A DNA stretch of 23,252 nt from Candidatus Fermentibacterota bacterium. GTDB lineage: Bacteria; JAFGKV01. Shown piece by piece: positions 774-22,673 of this stretch. A model generated the notes under the pieces. It worked only from the letters and a program-made list of their open reading frames with translations, was not told where the DNA came from and did not search any database. Made by a program: the position numbers and the translations under genes. How positions within the stretch are numbered: position 1 is the stretch's first letter; the number at the start of each line of letters is the position of its first letter. The stretch spans positions 1 through 23,252 of the forward strand of contig JAUXFG010000054.1 in the NCBI GenBank assembly GCA_030620115.1, given 5' to 3'.

Positions 774-3700
774 ATGATGATCATCAAGAGGGTGCCATTG
801 ATTCTTCTCGTCCTGGCCTTGGTGGTGGTCCCCCAAGTTTCCGGTGAGGAGATATTCGGTCCAATTGATGTTGGCGTCGGAATAGCTGCGAAGACTCCTC
901 TCTATGTTGGGGAGGAAGCCGAGTTTGAGGCGACGATTCGCCTATTTCCCGAGTCATCATCGAGCTGTTCTCCAAAAAAACCCTTTGGCATTGCAGTCAT
1001 ATGGACCGACCGCTGGTATCCCAGTGGAGGGACGCAAATCCTTGGTGACGACATAATCTACACTACATTGGATCCGAAAAAGCCGCTTGTCTTTCCTTTT
1101 CGCGTACGGGTCGAGAAAGCTGATATAACAGCAACTTGGATGGTCTACACACGTGTTACTCCTGAGATTAGGCCTTGCCTTGGCGTCAACAGCGACGGAT
1201 CAACCGAGGCTGATATCGATTGGCAGGATCTGGGAAAAGGATGGATCCTTATCGGTTTTGGAGGAACAAGTTGGGGAATCCCAGCAGAGAGCAAAGATGG
1301 CCAACTAGTGACTGCTGCGGAGCTGCAGAAGATGACCGCTGATAGGCAAGCAAGATTCTCGGACAAGCTCGCGGCAACGAGAGCAGGCAGCTATCGTCCG
1401 GATGAGTCAATACTCGCGGCCATAGACCAAGGATTGGCGGAAGAGATGCAAATGGAGATGGACAGCGCGCTGGTAAATGTATCCGACGCGATGCGCGTGG
1501 AGCTTGCGATGGTTGCAGAGGAGCTTGGAAGGAGAACCAAAACACCAGCCGAAGATGCGGCAGCGTTTCTCTGCCGGATGGTGCGGTCTAGATGGCGATC
1601 TATCTGGCGAACTGCTCCAAATGCCGACATAAACAAGGTTGCGGCGCCGGTTTTGGAGATCCATGGCTTGGAGCGGCTGGAGTTCATGTACAGGGAGACA
1701 CGGAGGGTTGCGGCTTCACCCACAGGGAAGGCGTGGGAGGCGTTTGCGCGCGCAGATAAAGGGGAGATGACTTGGGACGAGGCAGAGGCGGAACTTGACA
1801 GCCTGTTGCGAGAGCATCCGGAGGACAAGGAACTACTGCGCAATGCCTCTGGCATCAGGGACATAATCGAGGAGCTCAAGAAGGAAGAAAAAGAGGATGA
1901 AGGAGAGGTCGGCGACAGCAATATCCCGTCCGGGGAAAGAGACGGATGGGTCATTGTTCAGGGGATCTGGAACTATAGAGATCACGCGTATACGAAGGAA
2001 TTCGGGCTCGAATTGAGCACCACGGATCGCCCGGTGCGCAGCGCTGTCACGTATGTACGAGTATATGGACCTGGCGGGCCATATTGGTGGGGCCCATCCC
2101 TCACCTATGAGAACGGATCGTTCACCATATCGGAGTATTGGTGGCTCGATGGGATTGGACTGACCACGTGGATCTGGGCCGAGGGACCCGTCGTTCATCC
2201 TGCAAGCCTCATGCACGTGCGGAATAAGCAAGGCCGCCAGTATAGGTTCGAGGGCAACAGCGGCAACAGCACAGTACCTACTGACATCACCATAAATCTT
2301 GGCACCTCATATCCGGAGGGCGACAGCACTGCTGCTATGAATATCTACGATGTTCTCTTTCAGGGATGGACCAAGATCCCAGGAAACAAACCGTGGGCGC
2401 ATGACCTAAAGGTTTTCTGGGAGCCGGGATATATGCCACCCGATTCTGTAACAGCCTATTATCCCGACACGGAAACAATCCACCTCATTGGAGCAATTCC
2501 AAAAACAGACGAGTGGGATGATGACGTAATCCTTCATGAGATGGGTCACTGGTTACATGACATCTATGGCATCATTCCCGCAAATAGAGTTGGGAAACAC
2601 AAATGGACCCATGCCTATCCGCGTGTAGATCAGAGAGGAACAGCCTACACTGAAGGCTGGGCCACCTTCTACGCGGCCTATGCGGAGAGCGGATACGTCC
2701 TCAATCCCTCGCTTCAGCAGCACTTTGTTAACACGTACGGGGGGTTAGGTGGCAATAGAAGATCCTACTATGCTTGTGTTGAAGATCCTTGGGATCATAA
2801 TAAGGCACCTAGAGATAGCGTCACCAAACTTGAATGGGGAAACTATAATGAGGGATCGGTATGCGCCGCACTCTGGGATATCTACGATGGTAATAACGAA
2901 CCATATGATCTGGCGAATTGTCCTGAACATTATGATCCGTTGCGGGATAACTTGACGAATGGCATCTTGAATATATGGAAAACCTTCGCCGATGACTGGT
3001 TTGAGATCGATACCTTCTCTTTCTTCCTGCTGCGATGGTTTGAGCGCGGGTACGGCCACATGGATGAAATCAGTGAGATCGCGCAGCATTATGGTTGTGC
3101 GAGGAATCTTCGGGCCGATCACATCGATTCATTTCATAATCGCAAAGACACTCACTGGGTGAAAGTGCAGCCGGGGCAGAATCAAGAGTATGATACAACG
3201 CTGAGACTGACGAATCACAATGATGTGAGCCCGGAATCATTCGAAATCAGTGAGAGCATCCCATGGTTGGAGGTGGAACCGCTGACCGGCACGATTCCGG
3301 CAGTAGCCGATCCCGGCTCGGGCACAGCGGATCTGACAGTGACAGTGAATTCTGCTGGGCTTTCAGTAGGGGAACATACTGGTACTATTACGATTACGAA
3401 TACTGGAAGTAACCGGTGTACTCTCCAGATGCCCGTTCAAATGATAGTCCTTGATACCTTTGCTGCGATAGGTAGTGTTGTCGCACGAGGTGGGAGATCC
3501 GCGCTCGAGGATGCAGTTGTGGAAGCGTGGGAAGGAGGATGGCCTGAGGGCTCTGTGGTTGCACGAGACACAACAGATTCAGATGGTGTATTTGTGCTTG
3601 AGGCTTCGGAGGGGACCTATGACATCCGTGCCTATTGCGACGCTTACTTTCCTACATTGCTCACCGATCAGAACTGCCCCTCCATGGGCATCACCATCTT

Positions 3701-4406
3701 CTTGGACGAGCATGCATCACCGGAGATCTCAAGCCTCACGTGTTCATTTGTAGGCTATTCAAGCACACTCCAAGGCGTAGCTCTTCAGCCTGGCGATGTG
3801 ATAACTGCGAGCGATCCGGATGGCATCATATGTGGAGTCACTTCGGTTACTGCTCCTGGCGCTTATGGACCATTGGTCGTCTATGGCGACGATCCTGCGA
3901 CATCGGAAGTCGATGAGGGAGCAATTGAGGGCGATACTCTGATCTTCCGTGTCAACAACCTGGTTGCTGAGCCTCAAGGTCCAGGATCGCCAGTATGGAC
4001 GAATGGCGGATCGTCGATTCAGGTGGAGCTTGCCGCAATGGACGGTGCACCAAACACGCCGGAGGCCGTAGTGATCTATTCAGATAGTATCGGCACTTAT
4101 CTTTCCTGGTGGCCGGTATTCGAAGACGTCTATGGCAATGAGGAGGAAACCATATATTATCTGGTCTATAGGTCTCAGAACGCATTCCTTGACATCTCTG
4201 GCCTCTCGCCATTTGGCTATGGCGATGAATACGGGTATGAAGACTACGATGGCGGCGCAGGAAACGCTGAAGACAACTACTACTACATCGTAACGGTCAA
4301 AGATCACCTTGGTCAGGAATCGACTCCATCCGAGACATTGGGGGAGTTTGATTTCTCGTTGGGGTCGCGGGGCGAATCGGAAAGCAGGAGACGCCAACCC
4401 GAATAG
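774..4406 (+). CDS. Secreted multidomain zinc metalloprotease-like protein
   Basis: The 1210-residue product starts with a Sec signal peptide (about residues 1-24: MMIIKR, a hydrophobic core, then VSGEE). Reading along it: a beta-rich Ig-like region (about 25-185); a charged helical region (about 186-384) that is duplicated in the upstream gene; a beta-rich segment (385-507); and a catalytic-type region with HEMGH at 588-592. A glutamate in YTEGWATF at residue 627 is a plausible third zinc ligand of gluzincin type. A BACON/Ig-like domain follows at about 811-893 (IPWLEVEPLTGTI), then a carboxypeptidase-regulatory-like domain at about 897-980, and an FN3-like C-terminal domain at about 1080-1190. 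The tail GESESRRRQPE is not a recognisable sorting signal. HEXXH plus a downstream E supports metallopeptidase chemistry. Substrate and exact peptidase family are unknown. An adhesive or carbohydrate-bound extracellular protease is my inference. Confidence 0.8.
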   Translation: MMIIKRVPLILLVLALVVVPQVSGEEIFGPIDVGVGIAAKTPLYVGEEAEFEATIRLFPESSSSCSPKKPFGIAVIWTDRWYPSGGTQILGDDIIYTTLDPKKPLVFPFRVRVEKADITATWMVYTRVTPEIRPCLGVNSDGSTEADIDWQDLGKGWILIGFGGTSWGIPAESKDGQLVTAAELQKMTADRQARFSDKLAATRAGSYRPDESILAAIDQGLAEEMQMEMDSALVNVSDAMRVELAMVAEELGRRTKTPAEDAAAFLCRMVRSRWRSIWRTAPNADINKVAAPVLEIHGLERLEFMYRETRRVAASPTGKAWEAFARADKGEMTWDEAEAELDSLLREHPEDKELLRNASGIRDIIEELKKEEKEDEGEVGDSNIPSGERDGWVIVQGIWNYRDHAYTKEFGLELSTTDRPVRSAVTYVRVYGPGGPYWWGPSLTYENGSFTISEYWWLDGIGLTTWIWAEGPVVHPASLMHVRNKQGRQYRFEGNSGNSTVPTDITINLGTSYPEGDSTAAMNIYDVLFQGWTKIPGNKPWAHDLKVFWEPGYMPPDSVTAYYPDTETIHLIGAIPKTDEWDDDVILHEMGHWLHDIYGIIPANRVGKHKWTHAYPRVDQRGTAYTEGWATFYAAYAESGYVLNPSLQQHFVNTYGGLGGNRRSYYACVEDPWDHNKAPRDSVTKLEWGNYNEGSVCAALWDIYDGNNEPYDLANCPEHYDPLRDNLTNGILNIWKTFADDWFEIDTFSFFLLRWFERGYGHMDEISEIAQHYGCARNLRADHIDSFHNRKDTHWVKVQPGQNQEYDTTLRLTNHNDVSPESFEISESIPWLEVEPLTGTIPAVADPGSGTADLTVTVNSAGLSVGEHTGTITITNTGSNRCTLQMPVQMIVLDTFAAIGSVVARGGRSALEDAVVEAWEGGWPEGSVVARDTTDSDGVFVLEASEGTYDIRAYCDAYFPTLLTDQNCPSMGITIFLDEHASPEISSLTCSFVGYSSTLQGVALQPGDVITASDPDGIICGVTSVTAPGAYGPLVVYGDDPATSEVDEGAIEGDTLIFRVNNLVAEPQGPGSPVWTNGGSSIQVELAAMDGAPNTPEAVVIYSDSIGTYLSWWPVFEDVYGNEEETIYYLVYRSQNAFLDISGLSPFGYGDEYGYEDYDGGAGNAEDNYYYIVTVKDHLGQESTPSETLGEFDFSLGSRGESESRRRQPE
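1376..1925 (+). repeat. Direct repeat, copy 2 (inside the metalloprotease gene)
   Basis: This is the second copy of the 550-bp repeat and encodes residues 202-384 of the 1210-residue protein. Homology stops at 1925 and resumes at 2295, so 369 bp (exactly 123 codons) are absent from copy 1 at the matching junction. Confidence 0.9.
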
Positions 4407-13596: not shown

Positions 13597-14523
13597 CTAG
13601 AAGGCGAGAATGAGCGATAATCGGTGAGATTGCTCCAAATGCTGGAATGGGACATAGGCATAGTCGATCTGCGCCGACGTGGAGCCAAGCGATGTCCTGA
13701 GCCCGGTGCCAAAGGACATGTCCTCCTCATCGAATCTGACCTTGTACCCTGCCCGAAGCGCCAACATATCGTCAAACCAGTACTCAAGGCCGAAATTGTA
13801 CCGTTCCTGATTGTCACTGGGGTGGCTCCCCGCGAAAGCCGTGGTCAACCGATGCGGCCCGGAATGGATGGGATTCATGGAGAACCCGAGGCTGAAGTTG
13901 ATGGGAAGCTGGAAATCCTCCGTGAGGAACTTCATATTGGGGCCGAAATTGGTGGTCGACATGGCAATGATCAGCGATTTGAAGCCTGTGTCATAGTATG
14001 TTCCCACGTCGGCTCCCCACCCGGTGGCAGTCTCATTATGCATAGAGAGCTGCACGTATTTTGTCGTGATGCCGAAACTGAATTTATCCGTCAAGAATCT
14101 CGCATAACTGATGCCCACGGCAATGTTTCGGGCAGTGAACATCTGGCCGGTGCCATTGGGATAGAAGGGCGTCGTGACCTCCATCTCATCCATGTGGAGA
14201 AGTGTCATAGAAAGCGCCACAACCCCTCCCAAACTGGGCGCAGGCATCCCCACCGCGGCATATTCGAGCTGGATATCCGCGGGCCATTCCACGTGTGAGA
14301 GAAGGATCTGGCGCTCTTGCAGAAGACCAAGACCCGCGGGATTGTAAAAGGCGGCAGCCACATCGTCTGCAAGAGGCACGAATGCCTCACCCATGCCCAC
14401 CGCTCTGGGCGAGATTCCTATCTGCAAGAAGTTCGCGCCAACGGTGCCGACTTTTTCCTGGGCACCGACTATGCCGGGGAAGAGGATCACCGCGATGGCC
14501 ATCAGCGAAACTAGTGTTTTCAT
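13597..14523 (-). CDS. PorV/PorQ-family outer-membrane protein
   Basis: The 308-residue product has a signal peptide (MKTLVSLMAIAVILFPGIVGA) and the family N-terminal block GISPRAVGMGEAFVPLADDV, then AAAFYNPAGLG. Alternating amphipathic strands follow (for example GISYARFLTDKFSFGITTKY), and it ends in LSLILAF with a terminal aromatic residue, as in outer-membrane barrels. GGGAGG lies just upstream of the ATG. It is the last gene of a three-gene operon, 19 bases after the FN3 protein. In Bacteroidota, PorV and PorQ work with the type IX secretion system; in other phyla this family often sits beside TonB receptors with unknown roles. A role in placing or anchoring the neighbouring FN3 protein on the surface is a reasonable guess only. 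Confidence 0.85.
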   Translation of the reverse strand: MKTLVSLMAIAVILFPGIVGAQEKVGTVGANFLQIGISPRAVGMGEAFVPLADDVAAAFYNPAGLGLLQERQILLSHVEWPADIQLEYAAVGMPAPSLGGVVALSMTLLHMDEMEVTTPFYPNGTGQMFTARNIAVGISYARFLTDKFSFGITTKYVQLSMHNETATGWGADVGTYYDTGFKSLIIAMSTTNFGPNMKFLTEDFQLPINFSLGFSMNPIHSGPHRLTTAFAGSHPSDNQERYNFGLEYWFDDMLALRAGYKVRFDEEDMSFGTGLRTSLGSTSAQIDYAYVPFQHLEQSHRLSLILAF

Positions 14524-14542
14524 GATTTTTCCTCCCGGACGG

Positions 14543-16669
14543 CTACTTGATGATCATGAACTTGCCGACCTCGACCTCACCATCCTTGGGGCCGGATGTG
14601 TACTCCACGCTGAACAGGTAGATATCACTGACGATGGACTGGTTGCTTCTACTGATAAGATCCCAGCTTTCTCTCGGGCTGTTGGGATCAGTATGTTCCA
14701 CGGTGTCCACAAGGTCCCCGTCAATGGAATAGATCCGGATTGTGGCGGTGCCTGGAACAAGGTTGATGAAGTCGAGTCGCCTCGTGTGTTCGGACCACCG
14801 CCTGCTTGGATCATAGGCCTCCCATAATGCGCCCTCGTAGTCGGCATCTATCCGGTACGGATTGGGAACCACCCTGATTGGCACATCGGCCCCGAATTCA
14901 TTCGCTGCCGGAAAGATGGGGCCAAGCTCTAGGAAGTGCTTCAGTATCGAGCTCTCAAGCATGCCCAGGCCGGCTCGTTCATTGCCGATGTCGAATCCTA
15001 CGACCGAGTAGTAGTAAGGATAGTTCGCCGTCAGGCCCGTGTCGACGAAGGTATATGCATAGGTAGTGTCGCCATCGCTGTCCTGATACGGTGGTGGCGG
15101 CCACTCCGGAATATAGTCAACCACCGAGTCGACTTTGACCCATTCATAAAGGAGCGTCGAGCTCATCAGGGTCCCATATCTACTCCGGTAGATGCGGTAT
15201 CCCGCAAAGTCAATCGTCCTGGTGAACGGATCAATGCTGAATTCGGAATCACGAGACCAGTTGAGCGTAACCTTGTTCGTACCAGGGATTGCCTGAAGGG
15301 TAGGAGCTGTGGGAGGAGGGGGGCCGGCGAAGTCGGGGATGCCGTCTCCTTCCACCCAGATGGTGTCTCCATCTTCGATCCTGAATTCCCCCCGGTAGCC
15401 ATCACCGTCCGTGTCCACGCCGGGAATGTCGTATACCCGGGCGGCCCACACGGCGTTGGCGGCAAAATCCGCGAAGTCGAAGACCCCTGGTGAACGGACG
15501 AAGTTCGCACCGCATACGTAGGCCAATGTCACCGGCAATGTATCCCCAACGGCAATAGAATCGAATGGGCCGAACGATAGGAGGAATCGTGTGTCCTCAT
15601 AAGGCGTGCCTGCGGGAATCTGATCTTCAACCTCGATCTGGTTGGGATCGAAATGGCCATTGGAGAGGATCCGGTATTTGGCCACATCGCCGTCGGGCGT
15701 GCCGCCGATATCCGTTGGATCAGCGGCCACTCTGGGGCCCCAGTCCCTGGTGGCATTGGTATCCGACAGCCACCAGTTGTAGCTTACCTTGAGATCCGGG
15801 TTAGGTGTCCTGACGATGCGTACCCCGCTGACCCCTGCGGTGCCGTCTGATCCGAAGTAGTCGGCGATCCACGCCATGTTGATGGTGATGGAATCGCCGA
15901 ACACGTCCACGGTCTTTTCCTGGAACCCGGTTACATCATCCTGTGCCCCGTCGGAAAGATCAGTGTTGGGGCCGACACAGTCACCATCTATGTAGATCCC
16001 GATATATACATCATAGATCGCATTGTTGTCTTCGCGGATATTCGTCACCGAGAAGTCCATGATGATGAAATCTTCGGCATAGGAATAGCTCCAGGCGTAG
16101 CTTCTTTGTGTGACCTCGATTCCCATGGGTGTGTGCGCGCTAGGAACATCGTTGTATGTCGCGGTGGTGAATGTATCGGCGTAGATGGCGATGAAATCTT
16201 CCTCCGACACGGCGCGGGCAGCCATAGCGGAATCGGAGCTGGTGGTGGAAAGGGACTCAATGAGGCAGGGCACCTCCTTCACCGTGCATGGGAACATCTC
16301 GTTCTCATGCTGCCACCCATCGGCGCCCACCGAAACCAAGGTGTCATTGCCTACAACACCGCCGACCCACAGTGCTCCCTGGAAGAGGTAGTCGACGCCC
16401 GAGCCGGCAGGGAACTCACATTTCGGCAACCAGTAATCAGTTCCGCGGTAGTCGATCTGTTCGTCGTTGCCGAAGAATCCAAAATTCGATATGGTCAGCC
16501 ACATATTGCCGACTCTGTGTGTTTTCTGCTCCCTGGCGGGCTTGTCATCAGCAGGAGCCAGGAGCGCCGAGCCGTCGTCGGAGATCTTCTCCCATCTCGC
16601 CAGACCGGGAGAGGCAGTCAATACGAAAAGCCCGAGGATCAGCAGGTGGCAACCGGGAAAGCGCTTCAT
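14543..16669 (-). CDS. Exported FN3 protein with FlgD/T9SS-like C-terminal domain
   Basis: The 708-residue product has a signal peptide (about 1-24, ending PGLA), a large N-terminal region of unknown fold (about 45-420), a D-x-D-x-D-G stretch (DTDGDGYRGEF, 419-429), a fibronectin-III-like domain (about 452-580) and a C-terminal Ig-like domain. That last domain starts VPNPYRID (601) and continues TATIRIYSIDGDLVDTV, with YLFSVEYTSG and a terminal GKFMIIK. This tail resembles FlgD Ig-like and type IX sorting domains common in FCB and candidate-phylum proteins. AGGAGG precedes the ATG and overlaps the receptor's TAG stop. It is probably a cell-surface or periplasmic partner of the receptor. No enzymatic motif is visible. 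Confidence 0.82.
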   Translation of the reverse strand: MKRFPGCHLLILGLFVLTASPGLARWEKISDDGSALLAPADDKPAREQKTHRVGNMWLTISNFGFFGNDEQIDYRGTDYWLPKCEFPAGSGVDYLFQGALWVGGVVGNDTLVSVGADGWQHENEMFPCTVKEVPCLIESLSTTSSDSAMAARAVSEEDFIAIYADTFTTATYNDVPSAHTPMGIEVTQRSYAWSYSYAEDFIIMDFSVTNIREDNNAIYDVYIGIYIDGDCVGPNTDLSDGAQDDVTGFQEKTVDVFGDSITINMAWIADYFGSDGTAGVSGVRIVRTPNPDLKVSYNWWLSDTNATRDWGPRVAADPTDIGGTPDGDVAKYRILSNGHFDPNQIEVEDQIPAGTPYEDTRFLLSFGPFDSIAVGDTLPVTLAYVCGANFVRSPGVFDFADFAANAVWAARVYDIPGVDTDGDGYRGEFRIEDGDTIWVEGDGIPDFAGPPPPTAPTLQAIPGTNKVTLNWSRDSEFSIDPFTRTIDFAGYRIYRSRYGTLMSSTLLYEWVKVDSVVDYIPEWPPPPYQDSDGDTTYAYTFVDTGLTANYPYYYSVVGFDIGNERAGLGMLESSILKHFLELGPIFPAANEFGADVPIRVVPNPYRIDADYEGALWEAYDPSRRWSEHTRRLDFINLVPGTATIRIYSIDGDLVDTVEHTDPNSPRESWDLISRSNQSIVSDIYLFSVEYTSGPKDGEVEVGKFMIIK

Positions 16670-16680
16670 CGTCTGTCCTC

Positions 16681-19600
16681 CTAGAAACGAGCCTTGAACC
16701 CAAGACGGATATTGCGCCTCGGGTGGTAGTTGTATGGATCTCTGAGACTGAGTCTCCCATCACCCCACGGCGTTCCCCATCTCTCCTCCACTTCACGGAT
16801 GTTGTCGCGATCGAGCACATTCCTCACATCCAGAATGAGATCAAAATTCGTTCCCGCCAACTTGAATCCCTTGTTGAATTTGATGTCCAGCTCGCTGGTG
16901 TATGGCTTGCGGGCGTTGTTGCCCACATTCTCACCTTCGACTTTGTTGTTCAGCTCGTCCCTAAGGGTATACGGAAGACCGCTTCCATACTTCCATAGGA
17001 AGTTAAGGCCCCAATCCGATGGGAGTCCGAGGCCGAAAAGATGCAGTTCATCCCCTGGGAAGAAGCGGAAATCCGCGTTTAGAGTGATTGAATGCCTCTC
17101 ATCCCAGTCGAGATTGTTCTCCTTGAGCGGGAGGTTTTCGCCGGCATAGCCGGAATCATAGACGCTCCGGTCTGAAGAGCTCTTGCCCGTGGCCATCATA
17201 TAACCATAGGCAGCAGTGCCGCTTATGTGGTTGGAGTAGCGCTTCTCGAAGTTGATCTCGAATCCTCGGATTCTACCGAAGTCCACATTGCCATAGACAT
17301 AAAATCGGTCGTAGCGGTCGCCGAGCACCCATTGATTCACGAGATCGAACACATCTTTGAAAAAGCCCGTCACATCGACCTTGAAGTTGTCATTGAACGC
17401 GTGATCGACACCGAATTCATAGGCCACGGTTCGCTCCGGCTGTAGATTCGGGTTTCCAAATAGGCTGTAGGCGGAGGGCCCCTGGGTGTCCCGCGCATAG
17501 ACTTTGTCGAATTCCGGCCATTCGACAAAGTGGCCGTAGTTGAAGTAGAGCACATCATGATCGGTGATGGGATGGCTGATGCCCAATCGGGGGCTGAAGT
17601 AGAACGTCCAGAGATCTATGGGGATCAGCTCGCCTGACTGGTCGTAGATCTCCCGGTCCTTGAGCTCTGTCCCGAGGTAGCGGAAATCGAGCCTGAGGCC
17701 GGCGTTCACGATGAGGCCCTCGAACTCCATCTTGTCCTGGAGGTAGAATGCCCCGTCTATGGGACTCCTTTCGTAGAAGTCGCGGAACACGCCACGATCA
17801 GGATAGCCCGTTGCACTGTCTGCCTCATCATCAGCAAAAGGGTATTCGCGGTGTGGATATTGTATCTCTTTATGCTCGAATTCATTCAAACTGAGAAGAA
17901 AACCGGTCTTGGTTTGATGGTGTTTCCCGATCTGACTGGTGAGATCGAACTTCAGAGTATAGATACTTTCCTTGCGCGAGTGCCACTGGGCCCACTGATC
18001 ATACGTGCCTTCTCGGCCTTCATTGTAGAGTCCGTTCCAGTTCGCGTCGTCGAAAGGCTCACCAAAAAGGTCAACAATACCATTCTGATTGTAGTCTACC
18101 CACTCGCTGTCGGGATTGTTGGGATCTCCGTCTCCGTCAGGTTCTCCGTTGCCGTTCCAGTCATCATACTGTGGCCGCCATTCGGGTGGATCATGCTTGC
18201 CGTTCCCCTCGGTGCCGTATGGGTTGGAGACCGGGTCATAGTTGTCACCGGCAGGATCTGAGGGGTCGGATCCTTCTTCCCTCTCATCAGGAATGCCGTC
18301 GATGCCCACATCAAAGAACTCCTCGGCCGGGAAGCCGGGGTCTGCAAAACCGTCGTATGGATCCCACCAGCTATTCCCGTTCCAGTCAGTGAAACTCTCG
18401 CCGGGATCGTACACGCCATTGCCCTCGACAAAGGTGAAGTATTGGACCGCGTAGCTATTCGTCGCGACCCACATCTGATCCATCCGGAGATCGCCCTCCC
18501 CAGGTTGCCAGAATCCATCGTTGTTGAGATCATTCCAAGGATCGTATTCACCGTTGAACTCGTAGTCCATGTAGGCCACTTCTCCACTGCTGAACTCACC
18601 ATCGCCATTCACATCAACAAAGTCCCAGCCGTCCTGGTATGGCTCACCCTCATCCCATCGGTCGTTTCCATTCACATCGTGAAATGCTTCGGCGAAGTCG
18701 AACTGGCCGTTCGGGCCGTCATACATACCATTGCCGTTCACATCTTCGTAAGGTTCACCGGGATCCCACACATGATTCCCCTCGCCTCTATCGCGGTCAC
18801 CGGTGAGCGGATCACCATCCGCTCCCACATCTTGGTAGGGTTCCCCATCCAGCCACGGCTCCCAGAAGTCAGGAACCGAGCCGGTGTAGCTTCCACCGAA
18901 ATACGACCAAGGAAGGATCAGCATGTCTTCGAAGTCCGACAGCAAATCGTCGAAGCTTCGGTACTCACCCCAATCTCCCCAGGCGCCTACGGGCAGGATC
19001 TTCGGAAACCAATCAGGTCGATGCCCCCCTGGAAGCAGCTCATATTTGGTTCGAAAGAGCCCGGCGTTCACGGCATAGAAGGTGCTGTTGCTGAGCGTAT
19101 GGGTCCAGTTGATGTTCATGTGGTCGGATGTTCGTCTGGTTCGATAGTTGGTGTCGGGTGTGTACCGTTTCTGCCAGCTCGATCCATCGTTTCGGTCATC
19201 AGAGCCGCGGTAGCTGAAGGTTACCTTCATCTGCGGTTTGAAGCGATATGTCAGCTTTGTTGAAAGTGAGTAGCTGTTGTACTGCTTGTCTGGCAAAGAG
19301 AGGCCAAGTACCTTTCGATCAGGACGGTCCCGCCCGTTTGGTCGATACCCGTCGGTGATATTTGCGTCGAACGACGCGAAGTAGCTGAGATTGTCACCCG
19401 GCAGCTTGACGCCGAGCGTGGGGAGCAGAAATGTCGTGATCGGTTCGGGCCCCCCTAACGAGAGTTGCATATGCTGGGTGCCGAATGAGAACTTGCCCGG
19501 TATGATATCTTTCCCATCAATGCTTAGTTGATCGGTCTTATAGCTGAACGTTCCCGAGGTGGTTGTTACATTCCCTTCTTTGGTTATGAGGTTGATGATA

Positions 19601-20271
19601 CCCGACTGGGCATTGCCGTATTCCGCATTGAAGCCGCCGGTAAGCACCGACATCTCTTCGATGGCGTTGGAAGCAACATTGAGACCGGAGTTGCCACCGA
19701 CCAAGGGATCGTTGATCACCATCCCGTCAACCATGTAGATCACCTCGCCACCACGACCGCCGCGAACGTGAAGCTCACCGCCCTCGACTTTCATGGATGT
19801 CTGTGCTTCCAAAGCCTCGGTATAGTCGTCCACGGGCATGTTTTCCAATGTCTCGGCACTGATCTGGCGCCGAGAATCGGTGACGTCGATTTCAACAATA
19901 GGTTTGATCGCCTTGATCACGACCGCATCGAGGCCGATGACCTCCGGGGTCAAGTCCAGCGTTCCAAGATTGATAGTCAGATCGCTGGCCACCTGGACGT
20001 CGGTGATCTTGAGCTCAGCGAATCCGATCATGCTCACCTTGACGACATGGCGCCCTGGCGGTACCTGCATGATGCTGAAGTGCCCTTCGACGTCACACAC
20101 CGCACCGAAATAGGTTTCCTCAACCATGACCTGCGCACCGGGCATGGGATTTCCATTGTCGTCGACCACGCGGCCGGTGATCTTCCCGGTGACTCCTCCG
20201 AGGGCCGAAACGGCGAGTATGGATGTCAGGACGAAAGTGAGAAGTAGCCGGGGACCCTTCATTCCACTCAT
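16681..20271 (-). CDS. TonB-dependent receptor-like protein with an Asp/Asn/Gly-rich loop
   Basis: The 1196-residue product starts at the ATG at 20271: AAGGAGG lies 9 bases upstream, and the residues between 20373 and 20271 lack family features. It has a signal peptide (about 1-25), a carboxypeptidase-regulatory-like domain (about 30-116: GKITGRVVDDNGNPMPGAQV), a plug domain (about 131-236: LHVRGGRGGEVIYMVDGMVI, TGGFNAEYGNAQSGIINLIT) and a beta-barrel ending LGFKARF, with a final aromatic residue. At about residues 474-758 the barrel is interrupted by an unusual segment full of D-x-[DN]-x-[DN]-G motifs (DVNGNGMYD, DVNGNDRWDEGEPY, DVNGDGEFSSGE, DLNNDGFWQPGE, DYNQNGIVD). These resemble calcium-binding EF-hand or thrombospondin type-3 loops. 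The architecture is that of SusC-type importers. A substrate cannot be named, and no SusD partner is present. Confidence 0.88.
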   Translation of the reverse strand: MSGMKGPRLLLTFVLTSILAVSALGGVTGKITGRVVDDNGNPMPGAQVMVEETYFGAVCDVEGHFSIMQVPPGRHVVKVSMIGFAELKITDVQVASDLTINLGTLDLTPEVIGLDAVVIKAIKPIVEIDVTDSRRQISAETLENMPVDDYTEALEAQTSMKVEGGELHVRGGRGGEVIYMVDGMVINDPLVGGNSGLNVASNAIEEMSVLTGGFNAEYGNAQSGIINLITKEGNVTTTSGTFSYKTDQLSIDGKDIIPGKFSFGTQHMQLSLGGPEPITTFLLPTLGVKLPGDNLSYFASFDANITDGYRPNGRDRPDRKVLGLSLPDKQYNSYSLSTKLTYRFKPQMKVTFSYRGSDDRNDGSSWQKRYTPDTNYRTRRTSDHMNINWTHTLSNSTFYAVNAGLFRTKYELLPGGHRPDWFPKILPVGAWGDWGEYRSFDDLLSDFEDMLILPWSYFGGSYTGSVPDFWEPWLDGEPYQDVGADGDPLTGDRDRGEGNHVWDPGEPYEDVNGNGMYDGPNGQFDFAEAFHDVNGNDRWDEGEPYQDGWDFVDVNGDGEFSSGEVAYMDYEFNGEYDPWNDLNNDGFWQPGEGDLRMDQMWVATNSYAVQYFTFVEGNGVYDPGESFTDWNGNSWWDPYDGFADPGFPAEEFFDVGIDGIPDEREEGSDPSDPAGDNYDPVSNPYGTEGNGKHDPPEWRPQYDDWNGNGEPDGDGDPNNPDSEWVDYNQNGIVDLFGEPFDDANWNGLYNEGREGTYDQWAQWHSRKESIYTLKFDLTSQIGKHHQTKTGFLLSLNEFEHKEIQYPHREYPFADDEADSATGYPDRGVFRDFYERSPIDGAFYLQDKMEFEGLIVNAGLRLDFRYLGTELKDREIYDQSGELIPIDLWTFYFSPRLGISHPITDHDVLYFNYGHFVEWPEFDKVYARDTQGPSAYSLFGNPNLQPERTVAYEFGVDHAFNDNFKVDVTGFFKDVFDLVNQWVLGDRYDRFYVYGNVDFGRIRGFEINFEKRYSNHISGTAAYGYMMATGKSSSDRSVYDSGYAGENLPLKENNLDWDERHSITLNADFRFFPGDELHLFGLGLPSDWGLNFLWKYGSGLPYTLRDELNNKVEGENVGNNARKPYTSELDIKFNKGFKLAGTNFDLILDVRNVLDRDNIREVEERWGTPWGDGRLSLRDPYNYHPRRNIRLGFKARF
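18000..18852 (-). other. Coding region for a Ca-binding-like loop insertion in the receptor barrel
   Basis: About 285 residues are dominated by D, N, G, E, P and W, with at least ten D/N-rich loops often followed by GEPY, GEXF or DPW. Typical barrel strands resume at SIYTLKFDLTSQIG. This length is far greater than a normal extracellular loop and would project from the cell surface. Calcium binding is inferred from spacing, not shown. Confidence 0.75.
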
Positions 20272-20280
20272 CTTCGAGTA

Positions 20281-20461
20281 CCTCCTTAAAGCGGCAGTGT
20301 CGAAGTTCCCCCCCGCCGGGCGCCAAAGAAGCGCGGGGGATATGTTCATTCGTGATAGCCCCAAAAACAACATCCGAAGATTGCTTTATGCAAATATGGA
20401 CCTTACTATCTGCACATTCGCATGTCAACCCCATTTGCCGTGGATCAGGATGTTTGGCCCC
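20281..20461 (-). promoter_or_regulatory. Leader and possible promoter of the receptor operon
   Basis: On the minus strand a perfect TTGACA (20423-20428) is followed after 17 bases by TAAGGT, a weak -10. Between it and the start lies a GC-rich hairpin (CCCCGC 20311-20316 with GCGGGG 20333-20338) and then the AAGGAGG site at 20281-20287. Promoter strength and any leader regulation are uncertain. Confidence 0.35.
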
Positions 20462-20783: not shown

Positions 20784-22673
20784 ATGGTTCACAAAGCTAT
20801 CCTCCTATTCGTGGTTTGCTCGTTCTTCTGTTCCTTAGGGATATTCATGGGATGCGAACCGGAAGTTACCGGCGATGCGCTGGACAATATCCCACCTACA
20901 GTAAGGTTACCCAATTCCATGGCTGATTCCATGTATCTTTCCGCGGCCACCGTGATCAAGTGGATCGGAGATGATGCTGATGGCTTGGTTGTCGGCTATT
21001 CCTACCAAGTCGATGGTGGTGCGTGGACCCATGAAGGCGACAATGACAGCGATTGGAATCCGGCCACCGATGATCTGGAGAACCTTGCGATCGGCATCGA
21101 GAAGAACGGGGTTCCCGATCTCAATTGGGACGGTGGATTCGGCTTGCTAGGTGTGGACGACGATGGAGACAATGAGATCTCGGCCTACCCTGATTCGTCT
21201 CGCTACTATGGATACACCATCTATGCTGATGAAGAGCTCCCCAATGGTATCGACGACGATGGGGATGGGAGGATCGATGAAGACTGCTGGGGTTGGGACG
21301 CAAACCGGGATGGGGACTGCGGGTATGATCCGGAACCGCATGTGGATGAAGACCCCAGAGACGGTGTTGATAATGACGGAGACGGTCTCGTCGACGAAGA
21401 TCCCATCAATCGGCCCCGTTGGGTTCGGGCTATTGGTGTCGCAGGCGAATGGACGTATTGGTCAGAGGCGACACAGGACTCGGTGAATTTCCCCGCGCTG
21501 GGCGGCGGCGTTGGTGAGATACATACATTCAGTGTGAAATGTATCGACAACCAGAAGGCTGAATCCGAGCCCGTCGGGCTCGCCGTTTTTACGACGACCT
21601 TCCTGCCGATTCCTGAAATTGTCGAAGGGCCCACCAACGGCCAAGAGGTTTTCATGTGGCCCGATACCACAGAGACGTGGCATGGCGTCAGGTTTGCATT
21701 GGGTGGGGATGATGTTCATCGAGACGTGTATTACAACATCATTGAAGATGGACGCGTGGTGCGGTGGGCGTGGTGGCTGGATGATTCCTTGTTTGTACCA
21801 TCACGAGATGATTTCAGTCCCGATAACGAGGCCGTGATTTTTAATGGTGTGTCCCGGAATGGTCTGGTCTATGACCTGCCCACAGGATGGCACACGCTCT
21901 ACGTGTCCTGCATGGATAATGCCCAGGCTATTTCGGACAGCATTGTTTCGCGAGCATTCTATGCGGTCAATCCGTCGTTCTCCAAGGAGATACTAATGGT
22001 GGATGCGGCCTATGAGCCTTTCCCCGGCGCATGGGATGAAGAGGAGATCTATGAGAACACCCTTCTTCTTGGCGTCGATGTGACACGAATCACCATGCCG
22101 GGGCCGCCGGAAGCGAACAGCTACTTCCTCCAGCCATCGGACGTAGGCGACTACAAGGCCATCTACTGGTACAAGGGAGGCACCGAACAGGATACTCTCC
22201 TGTCGAATCAGAAGGAGCTCTTTTCGGAGTACCTGAGTCTTGGCGGGAATCTCGTGATCGAGGGGTTGAGGACAATCAATGACTCGTTCACCTACACCAT
22301 TCCCAAGGAGTTCAGAGAGGGCGACTTTGCCTATGATTGCCTTGGCCTGGCTTCCGCGGATGAACCTGTGGGGTACCCGTTCGAAGGCGCTACAGGGGCG
22401 GTGAGCGAGTATCCGGATGTGCGACTGAAGGCGGGGGCATTTCCTTTCCCGGGGTTGCCGTTCACGACCACGGTCGATGCGCGGGACGAGGCTGCCGTTA
22501 TCATGCACATGATTTCGTCCGATGACGCGGCCAACGGGCTTCCCCTGGCCGTGCGTTATCATTCTGGTGCTTCGGGTGCGACCGCGCTTTTCTTTGGTTT
22601 TCCCATTATGTATCTGGAGCCTGATGACCTCCCGGCCCTGGGGCAGGCGATCATGGCTGATCTAGGGTTGTAA
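20784..22673 (+). CDS. Putative lipoprotein with Ca-binding-like DxDxDG loops
   Basis: The 629-residue product starts with a short signal peptide ending FMGC. C24 is a likely lipidation site, although the lipobox is not canonical. GGGAG precedes the ATG. An Ig-like region follows (about 37-82: PPTVRL, VIKWIGDDADGLVVGYSY). Between 124 and 206 there are repeated acidic loops (VDDDGDNE, NGIDDDGDGRIDED, DANRDGDCG, NGIDDDG-like GVDNDGDGLVDED), typical of thrombospondin type-3 or MopE-like calcium motifs. A second Ig-like region follows. The C-terminal third (about 395-629) has alternating strands such as EILMVDAAYE, YKAIYWYKGG and LSLGGNLVIEGL, resembling a ThuA/glutamine-amidotransferase-like fold without a visible catalytic Cys. 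It is divergent from the receptor operon and followed by a strong terminator. A surface partner of the receptor is possible. Confidence 0.8.
   Translation: MVHKAILLFVVCSFFCSLGIFMGCEPEVTGDALDNIPPTVRLPNSMADSMYLSAATVIKWIGDDADGLVVGYSYQVDGGAWTHEGDNDSDWNPATDDLENLAIGIEKNGVPDLNWDGGFGLLGVDDDGDNEISAYPDSSRYYGYTIYADEELPNGIDDDGDGRIDEDCWGWDANRDGDCGYDPEPHVDEDPRDGVDNDGDGLVDEDPINRPRWVRAIGVAGEWTYWSEATQDSVNFPALGGGVGEIHTFSVKCIDNQKAESEPVGLAVFTTTFLPIPEIVEGPTNGQEVFMWPDTTETWHGVRFALGGDDVHRDVYYNIIEDGRVVRWAWWLDDSLFVPSRDDFSPDNEAVIFNGVSRNGLVYDLPTGWHTLYVSCMDNAQAISDSIVSRAFYAVNPSFSKEILMVDAAYEPFPGAWDEEEIYENTLLLGVDVTRITMPGPPEANSYFLQPSDVGDYKAIYWYKGGTEQDTLLSNQKELFSEYLSLGGNLVIEGLRTINDSFTYTIPKEFREGDFAYDCLGLASADEPVGYPFEGATGAVSEYPDVRLKAGAFPFPGLPFTTTVDARDEAAVIMHMISSDDAANGLPLAVRYHSGASGATALFFGFPIMYLEPDDLPALGQAIMADLGL

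Follow-up and report, generated by a model that had tools for sequence, protein, structure and literature searches.

Background

One described system to which the present receptor can be likened is BtuB, the TonB-dependent receptor for vitamin B12, which holds Ca2+ in its outer loops. Calcium, bound via aspartates, orders the extracellular loops of BtuB and raises ligand affinity, which drops 1000-fold at sub-saturating calcium (PMC7360065). BtuB has one small aspartate cage in short loops, whereas the receptor reported here carries approximately 8-12 EF-type loops within one giant loop. A second precedent is provided by Dx[DN]xDG loops, which bind Ca2+ in many contexts other than the EF-hand (Rigden et al. 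2011; PMC3123361). In Tk-subtilisin, an irregular insertion with such loops requires Ca2+ for folding, and TonB receptors are absent from the survey of this motif (PMC3123361). The signature of our receptor is the same, lacks flanking helices and is likewise inserted into an unrelated fold, but unlike the motif of that survey (PMC3123361) it is repeated in tandem, with an EPYxD linker of its own. Dockerin type I and EF-hand families use 12-residue loops with ligands at positions 1, 3, 5, 9 and 12, an arrangement also present in our insertion. Thrombospondin type 3 repeats resemble it as tandem calcium loops that are rich in Asp and lack regular secondary structure, yet their linker is different. 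SusC-like proteins have an N-terminal CarboxypepD_reg domain, a plug and a barrel in common with our receptor. TonB receptors and EF-type loops outside EF-hands are already known kinds. Neither the literature searched nor the family databases yielded their combination at such a scale, and the literature search returned nothing relevant on TonB receptors with EF-hand-like insertions.

Here we describe a receptor encoded on a contig of 23,252 nucleotides from a Candidatus Fermentibacterota bacterium (JAUXFG010000054.1 of assembly GCA_030620115.1; the whole contig is referred to as the window). It contains a conserved, EF-loop-rich insertion that is predicted to be extracellular and is best read as a calcium-stabilised, helix-free surface domain.

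A TonB-dependent receptor with an insertion in its predicted fourth loop

The receptor is encoded by a single intact open reading frame without internal stop, and three features of it are considered below.

16681..20373, minus strand: TonB-dependent receptor, 1230 aa (open reading frame, Pfam matches, and an AlphaFold2 model resembling PqqU, FhuA, Cir and BtuB)
17965..19029, minus strand: whole insertion, residues ~449-803, 355 aa, between strands beta7 and beta8, predicted extracellular loop L4 (AlphaFold2 topology, homologs with short loops)
17992..18849, minus strand: Asp/Asn/Gly-rich loop array, residues 509-794, 286 aa

Pfam matches to CarboxypepD_reg, Plug (PF07715, 36 bits) and TonB_dep_Rec_b-barrel (PF00593, 78 bits) identify the protein as a TonB-dependent receptor, with a plug and a beta-barrel that are also evident in the predicted structure. 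An AlphaFold2 (AF2) run on residues 155-1230 with an alignment of 42 sequences modelled the plug and barrel confidently (pLDDT mostly 80-96). This model matched PDB receptors at E values of 1e-23 to 1e-28, with PqqU at the top (E 2.5e-28) and BtuB, FhuA and Cir also listed. Because its score against the SusC/RagA family is far under the cut-off (TIGR04056, 84 bits versus 368), the receptor is not a classical SusC; no SusD-family match was obtained among the neighbouring genes scanned.

The limits of the insertion were set by comparison with short-loop homologs. With strands counted from the plug, the model places beta7 (model residues 277-294) before the insertion and beta8 (642-661) after it. 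The turns near the insertion on the opposite face of the barrel are only 2-3 residues long (226-227, 275-276, 662-664 and 731-732 in model numbering), which argues that the insertion is on the outer, long-loop face as L4, a placement derived from the predicted model. The window receptor differs from known TonB-dependent receptors in that this L4 is approximately 350 aa long and carries metal-loop repeats. The loop array is missing from the other long receptor paralogs recognised in this genome, whose lengths are 922-1001 aa, and paralogs of this genome have 34-163 aa at the L4 insertion point.

The preliminary description of this DNA, made from its letters, had proposed a calcium-binding-like insertion of about 285 residues at 18000-18852 that interrupts the barrel and forms an external domain. 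Its substance stands, including the near-identical coordinates of the array, the interruption between two modelled barrel strands, and a predicted position on the extracellular rather than the periplasmic side. The spacing of the loops also fits metal coordination, with ligands at positions 1, 3, 5, 9 and 12 of a 12-residue EF loop. Its count of more than ten D-x-[DN]-x-[DN]-G loops does not hold for the strict motif, of which there are six, and is reached (approximately 12) only when degenerate loops are included.

Metal-loop repeats of the insertion

The 286 residues of the array comprise 47 D, 43 G, 27 N, 26 E and 24 P, with no cysteine. This biased composition does not account for the loops. 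The six strict D-x-[DN]-x-[DN]-G sites compare with a mean of 0.40, and the four relaxed 12-residue EF-loops with 0.017, in composition-preserving shuffles of the same residues; neither observed number was attained in any of the 20,000 shuffles. Eight loops have D at position 1, N at position 3 and N or D at position 5, and the total rises to about 12 once the degenerate RGEGNHVWDPGE, FVEGNGVYDPGE, DYEFNGEYDPWN and GTEGNGKHDPPE are counted. Full 12-residue EF loops with ligands at positions 1, 3, 5, 9 and 12 number two by the strict and four by the relaxed definition in the window, and relatives have up to eight canonical 12-residue EF-hand loops each. Several window loops have no acidic residue at position 12. 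GEP occurs five times in the array. Individual loops are the following.

18754..18789, minus strand: degenerate loop RGEGNHVWDPGE (residues 529-540)
18709..18744, minus strand: EF-type loop DVNGNGMYDGPN (544-555)
18643..18678, minus strand: EF-type loop DVNGNDRWDEGE (566-577)
18580..18615, minus strand: canonical 12-residue EF loop DVNGDGEFSSGE (587-598)
18532..18567, minus strand: degenerate loop DYEFNGEYDPWN (603-614)
18496..18531, minus strand: canonical EF loop DLNNDGFWQPGE (615-626)
18397..18432, minus strand: degenerate loop FVEGNGVYDPGE (648-659)
18352..18387, minus strand: EF-type loop DWNGNSWWDPYD (663-674); both sister genomes have the strict DWNGNGLWDPYD here
18127..18162, minus strand: loop DWNGNGEPDGDG (738-749)
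18061..18096, minus strand: loop DYNQNGIVDLFG (760-771), followed by EPF
18013..18048, minus strand: loop DANWNGLYNEGR (776-787)

The repeat consensus is approximately 16 residues, E-[GP]-[YFW]-x-D-x-N-x-N-G-x-[WYF]-D-x-x-[ED]. No tandem repeat is detectable in the insertion at the DNA level, and the array is therefore not a recent slippage expansion.

Described families do not accommodate this domain. The insertion has no match above any Pfam or NCBIfam cut-off, the insertion family profile found no match among PDB chains, and the window array matched PDB sequences only at chance level (an Entamoeba-type EF-hand protein, E 0.37). Membership of the Dockerin or EF-hand Pfam families was rejected, as Dockerin_1 remained sub-threshold (9.1 and 16.7 bits versus 22.9). 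Thrombospondin type 3 repeats, which need cysteine-bridged Asp-rich repeats, were rejected on account of the cysteine-free array. The pattern of the window loops, Dx[DN]x[DN]G with a later acidic ligand, is that of Dx[DN]xDG loops and predicts Ca2+ binding. By this pattern and by analogy with the systems above, several calcium ions probably fold and stiffen the insertion.

Distribution of the insertion

A survey of homologs revealed sequence of a similar kind, 290-460 aa in length, at the same insertion point in a clade that spans several deep-branching phyla. The insertion-bearing records are named Fermentibacteria, 'Eisenbacteria', Calditrichaeota, Zixibacteria, LCP-89, KSB1, Electryonea and Hatepunaea. 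With 74% identity of its receptor to that of the window, the 'Eisenbacteria' record JALOPK010000015.1 probably belongs to the window's lineage. Its contig also appears to be that of a genome (G002) placed in the family of the window genome, and the Eisenbacteria title is probably a misnomer. The insertion is present in all three genomes examined from the window's own phylum; of 39 genomes from a related phylum, 35 possess it, most of them with one full-length gene of 1226-1315 aa. The initial impression that such an insertion is unusual for the family thus holds when the comparison is with TonB-dependent receptors in general or with the paralogs of the window's genome, but not for the receptor's own subfamily, in which it is standard.

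A tree of 71 receptors was built from the barrel and plug columns, with the insertion left out. It joins the window's clade with other long-insertion receptors in a group of 28 rows (SH-aLRT 88), within which a 24-row part and a 22-row core have values of 96 and 100, respectively; the tree is a quick one, its model is simple, and it brings some long branches together. Four changes account for the presence of at least four motifs across the 71 receptors. On a separate branch, two receptors (L156 and L158) have a still larger L4 insertion of 564-574 aa with 11-14 strict motifs. A surface loop of a TonB receptor can, on this evidence, expand to a large domain of metal loops that persists for a long time across phyla.

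Repeats of the form EPYxDxNGNGxWDxGE were also observed inside two propeller-like proteins (L153 and L154), between blade strands, and inserted in an Ig-like protein (L157). Judged by sequence, the repeat appears to be a portable calcium-loop module in proteins of related genomes. This occurrence in unrelated surface-type proteins indicates that the module is generic, and it favours a reading that we consider possible if rather unlikely, in which the insertion binds calcium for structure or adhesion only, as a rigid, protease-resistant spacer or a surface-anchoring module with no role in ligand capture or partner binding. BtuB points the same way, in that its calcium mainly restrains extracellular loops (PMC7360065). 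However, insertions of the long-insertion clade share 55-63% identity across families, a level equal to or above that of the barrel, which exceeds the need of a mere spacer.

Predicted structure and sequence conservation

The preferred reading, a calcium-stabilised surface domain, requires that the insertion be folded. AF2 modelled the window's own insertion at pLDDT ~30-45, a value that alone could mean disorder, a thin alignment or missing calcium, as both structures were predicted without calcium, which AF2 does not model. In the ortholog L160, for which 37 insertion sequences were available, approximately 160 residues (segment ~243-400) were modelled at pLDDT ~90 (about 72-94), with the N-terminal loop array at ~40-70. 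The question of disorder raised in the preliminary description is therefore answered in part. The flanking helices of EF-hands were not found, helix being almost absent from the insertion in both models, as far as their low confidence in these regions allows. A Foldseek search of the insertion against PDB folds returned nothing at E <= 0.001 (best E 3.8). Given the ordered part of L160 and the lack of matches in the PDB, Pfam and NCBIfam, a fold that is new and rich in loops is probable for part of the domain; we infer that this extends to the window's divergent version.

The low confidence of the window model, the bias towards D, G, N, E and P, and a length at the insertion point that ranges from 28 to 574 aa in the wider receptor family would also fit an acidic, largely disordered repeat that arose by repeat expansion and binds no specific metal. 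The ordered part of L160 and the missing DNA tandem repeats already speak against this reading, and the conservation of the insertion makes it improbable. An alignment of 37 insertions has 401 positions, 108 of them conserved at 90% or more; the conserved residue is D, G, N or E at 75 of the 108. Conservation is focused on the EF-loop ligands, with a mean top-residue frequency of 0.89 at positions 1, 3, 5, 9 and 12 versus 0.57 at positions 2, 4, 7, 10 and 11, although the former value is inflated because loops were picked by their pattern at positions 1, 3, 5 and 6. Positions 9 and 12, being outside the picking pattern, serve as a clean test and gave frequencies of 0.88 and 0.86. Between the window and L160, 63% of ligand residues are kept, compared with 20% of other loop positions. 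Across three Fermentibacterota orthologs, ligand positions were invariant in 36 of 40 cases versus 21 of 40 for the others (P = 0.0004). Replacement changes are few relative to saturated silent sites; comparison of the window insertion with two sister genomes gave a pS of 0.73-0.85 (saturated) and a pN of 0.11-0.19, close to the pN of 0.08-0.18 for the barrel parts in the same comparison. On these sequence comparisons, the insertion is under purifying selection.

Neighbouring genes and a proposed role

Two genes lie downstream of the receptor on the same strand.

14543..16669, minus strand: partner gene, 708 aa, predicted surface protein whose C-terminal domain resembles type IX secretion system (T9SS) sorting domains; at 55 of 59 receptor loci a homolog is the next gene on the same strand
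13597..14523, minus strand: PorV/PorQ-family outer-membrane protein, 308 aa (NF033709, 212 bits versus a cut-off of 90); follows the partner in 48 loci

The 59 loci are those of receptor homologs for which 2.5 kb or more of downstream sequence was available. The resulting cassette of TonB receptor, T9SS-CTD-like surface protein and PorV/PorQ-family protein (window positions 13597-20373) was also observed in loci L045-L124, across FCB-type phyla. Further pairs of a receptor and a PorV-family gene occur in the window's genome on contigs C7, C99, C237 and C262. The 708-aa protein has no Pfam match, and the window copy did not match a T9SS sorting domain; the C-terminal domain of its ortholog in L047 matched that of the T9SS protein PorZ (E 0.0013), and the end motif of the family is conserved across phyla. 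SprA_N scored above cut-off in the window's genome (G000:C277:2585-2980) and in five relatives, which indicates that the lineage of the window has SprA, the T9SS translocon. With SprA in the genome and a PorV-family gene in the operon, the locus qualifies as T9SS-linked.

The explanation that we favour, and regard as rather probable when taken as a whole, is that L4 of the receptor has been expanded into a helix-free surface domain of 290-460 aa composed of ~16-residue repeats, each holding an EF-hand-type 12-residue metal loop. These loops would bind several Ca2+ ions, and the domain would thereby be folded and stiffened outside the cell. The folded domain, probably situated over the barrel mouth, might dock the putative T9SS-type exported partner encoded next to it, which would be held by the PorV-like barrel. 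Receptor domain and partner could then function as a capture lid, as SusD or BtuG do with their own transporters, and this is the step that we hold most loosely. Receptors whose L4 is short have the same neighbours, and the partner is no less conserved next to them. The partner alone therefore does not explain the insertion, and the proposal that the insertion exists to hold it is weakened; for the same reason, the role of the insertion may rather be that of a scaffold or of an adhesive module at the surface. The earlier suggestion that calcium could control ligand capture or surface anchoring is supported in part, its calcium component being the one that the sequence supports.

A bolder form of the capture-lid proposal, which we regard as rather unlikely, is that the insertion represents an undescribed family of calcium-dependent extracellular domains, fixed in a core and usually single-copy TonB receptor of several candidate phyla and docking a T9SS-exported partner, so that the whole would be a SusCD-like capture machine with a T9SS-delivered lid and a calcium lock. 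That the loops instead select or concentrate metal cargo (Ca2+, Mn2+, a lanthanide or a metal-ligand complex) as a metal-capture antenna for the transporter is very improbable, for although many EF-type sites lie on its predicted outer face and EF loops can bind lanthanides, as in lanmodulin, the genes recognised in the neighbourhood include glycosyltransferases, the PorV-like protein and the putative surface protein but none for metal handling. The receptor is tied to a conserved T9SS/PorV gene cassette and bears a domain and repeat unit absent from Pfam, NCBIfam and the PDB; with it, a possible control of outer-membrane uptake by calcium becomes testable in Fermentibacterota and related uncultured lineages.

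Additional genes at these loci were observed. Long-insertion relatives examined outside Fermentibacterota have a beta-helix lipoprotein-like gene between receptor and partner that is not found in the window. It encodes ~645-720 aa with a right-handed beta-helix (L047, L049, L053, L054, L056 and L060), and Beta_helix (PF13229) scored above cut-off in L054, L056 and L060. In the window, a 1210-aa protein (774-4406, plus strand) contains the motif HEMGHW, which resembles that of zinc metallopeptidases, and shows weak BACON-like matches, with no Pfam family above cut-off. The product of the divergent gene upstream of the receptor (20784-22673, plus strand) is a lipoprotein-like protein of 629 aa that has metal loops of a different style (GIDDDGDGRIDED / GVDNDGDGLVDED) and is kept in a sister genome at 64-68%.
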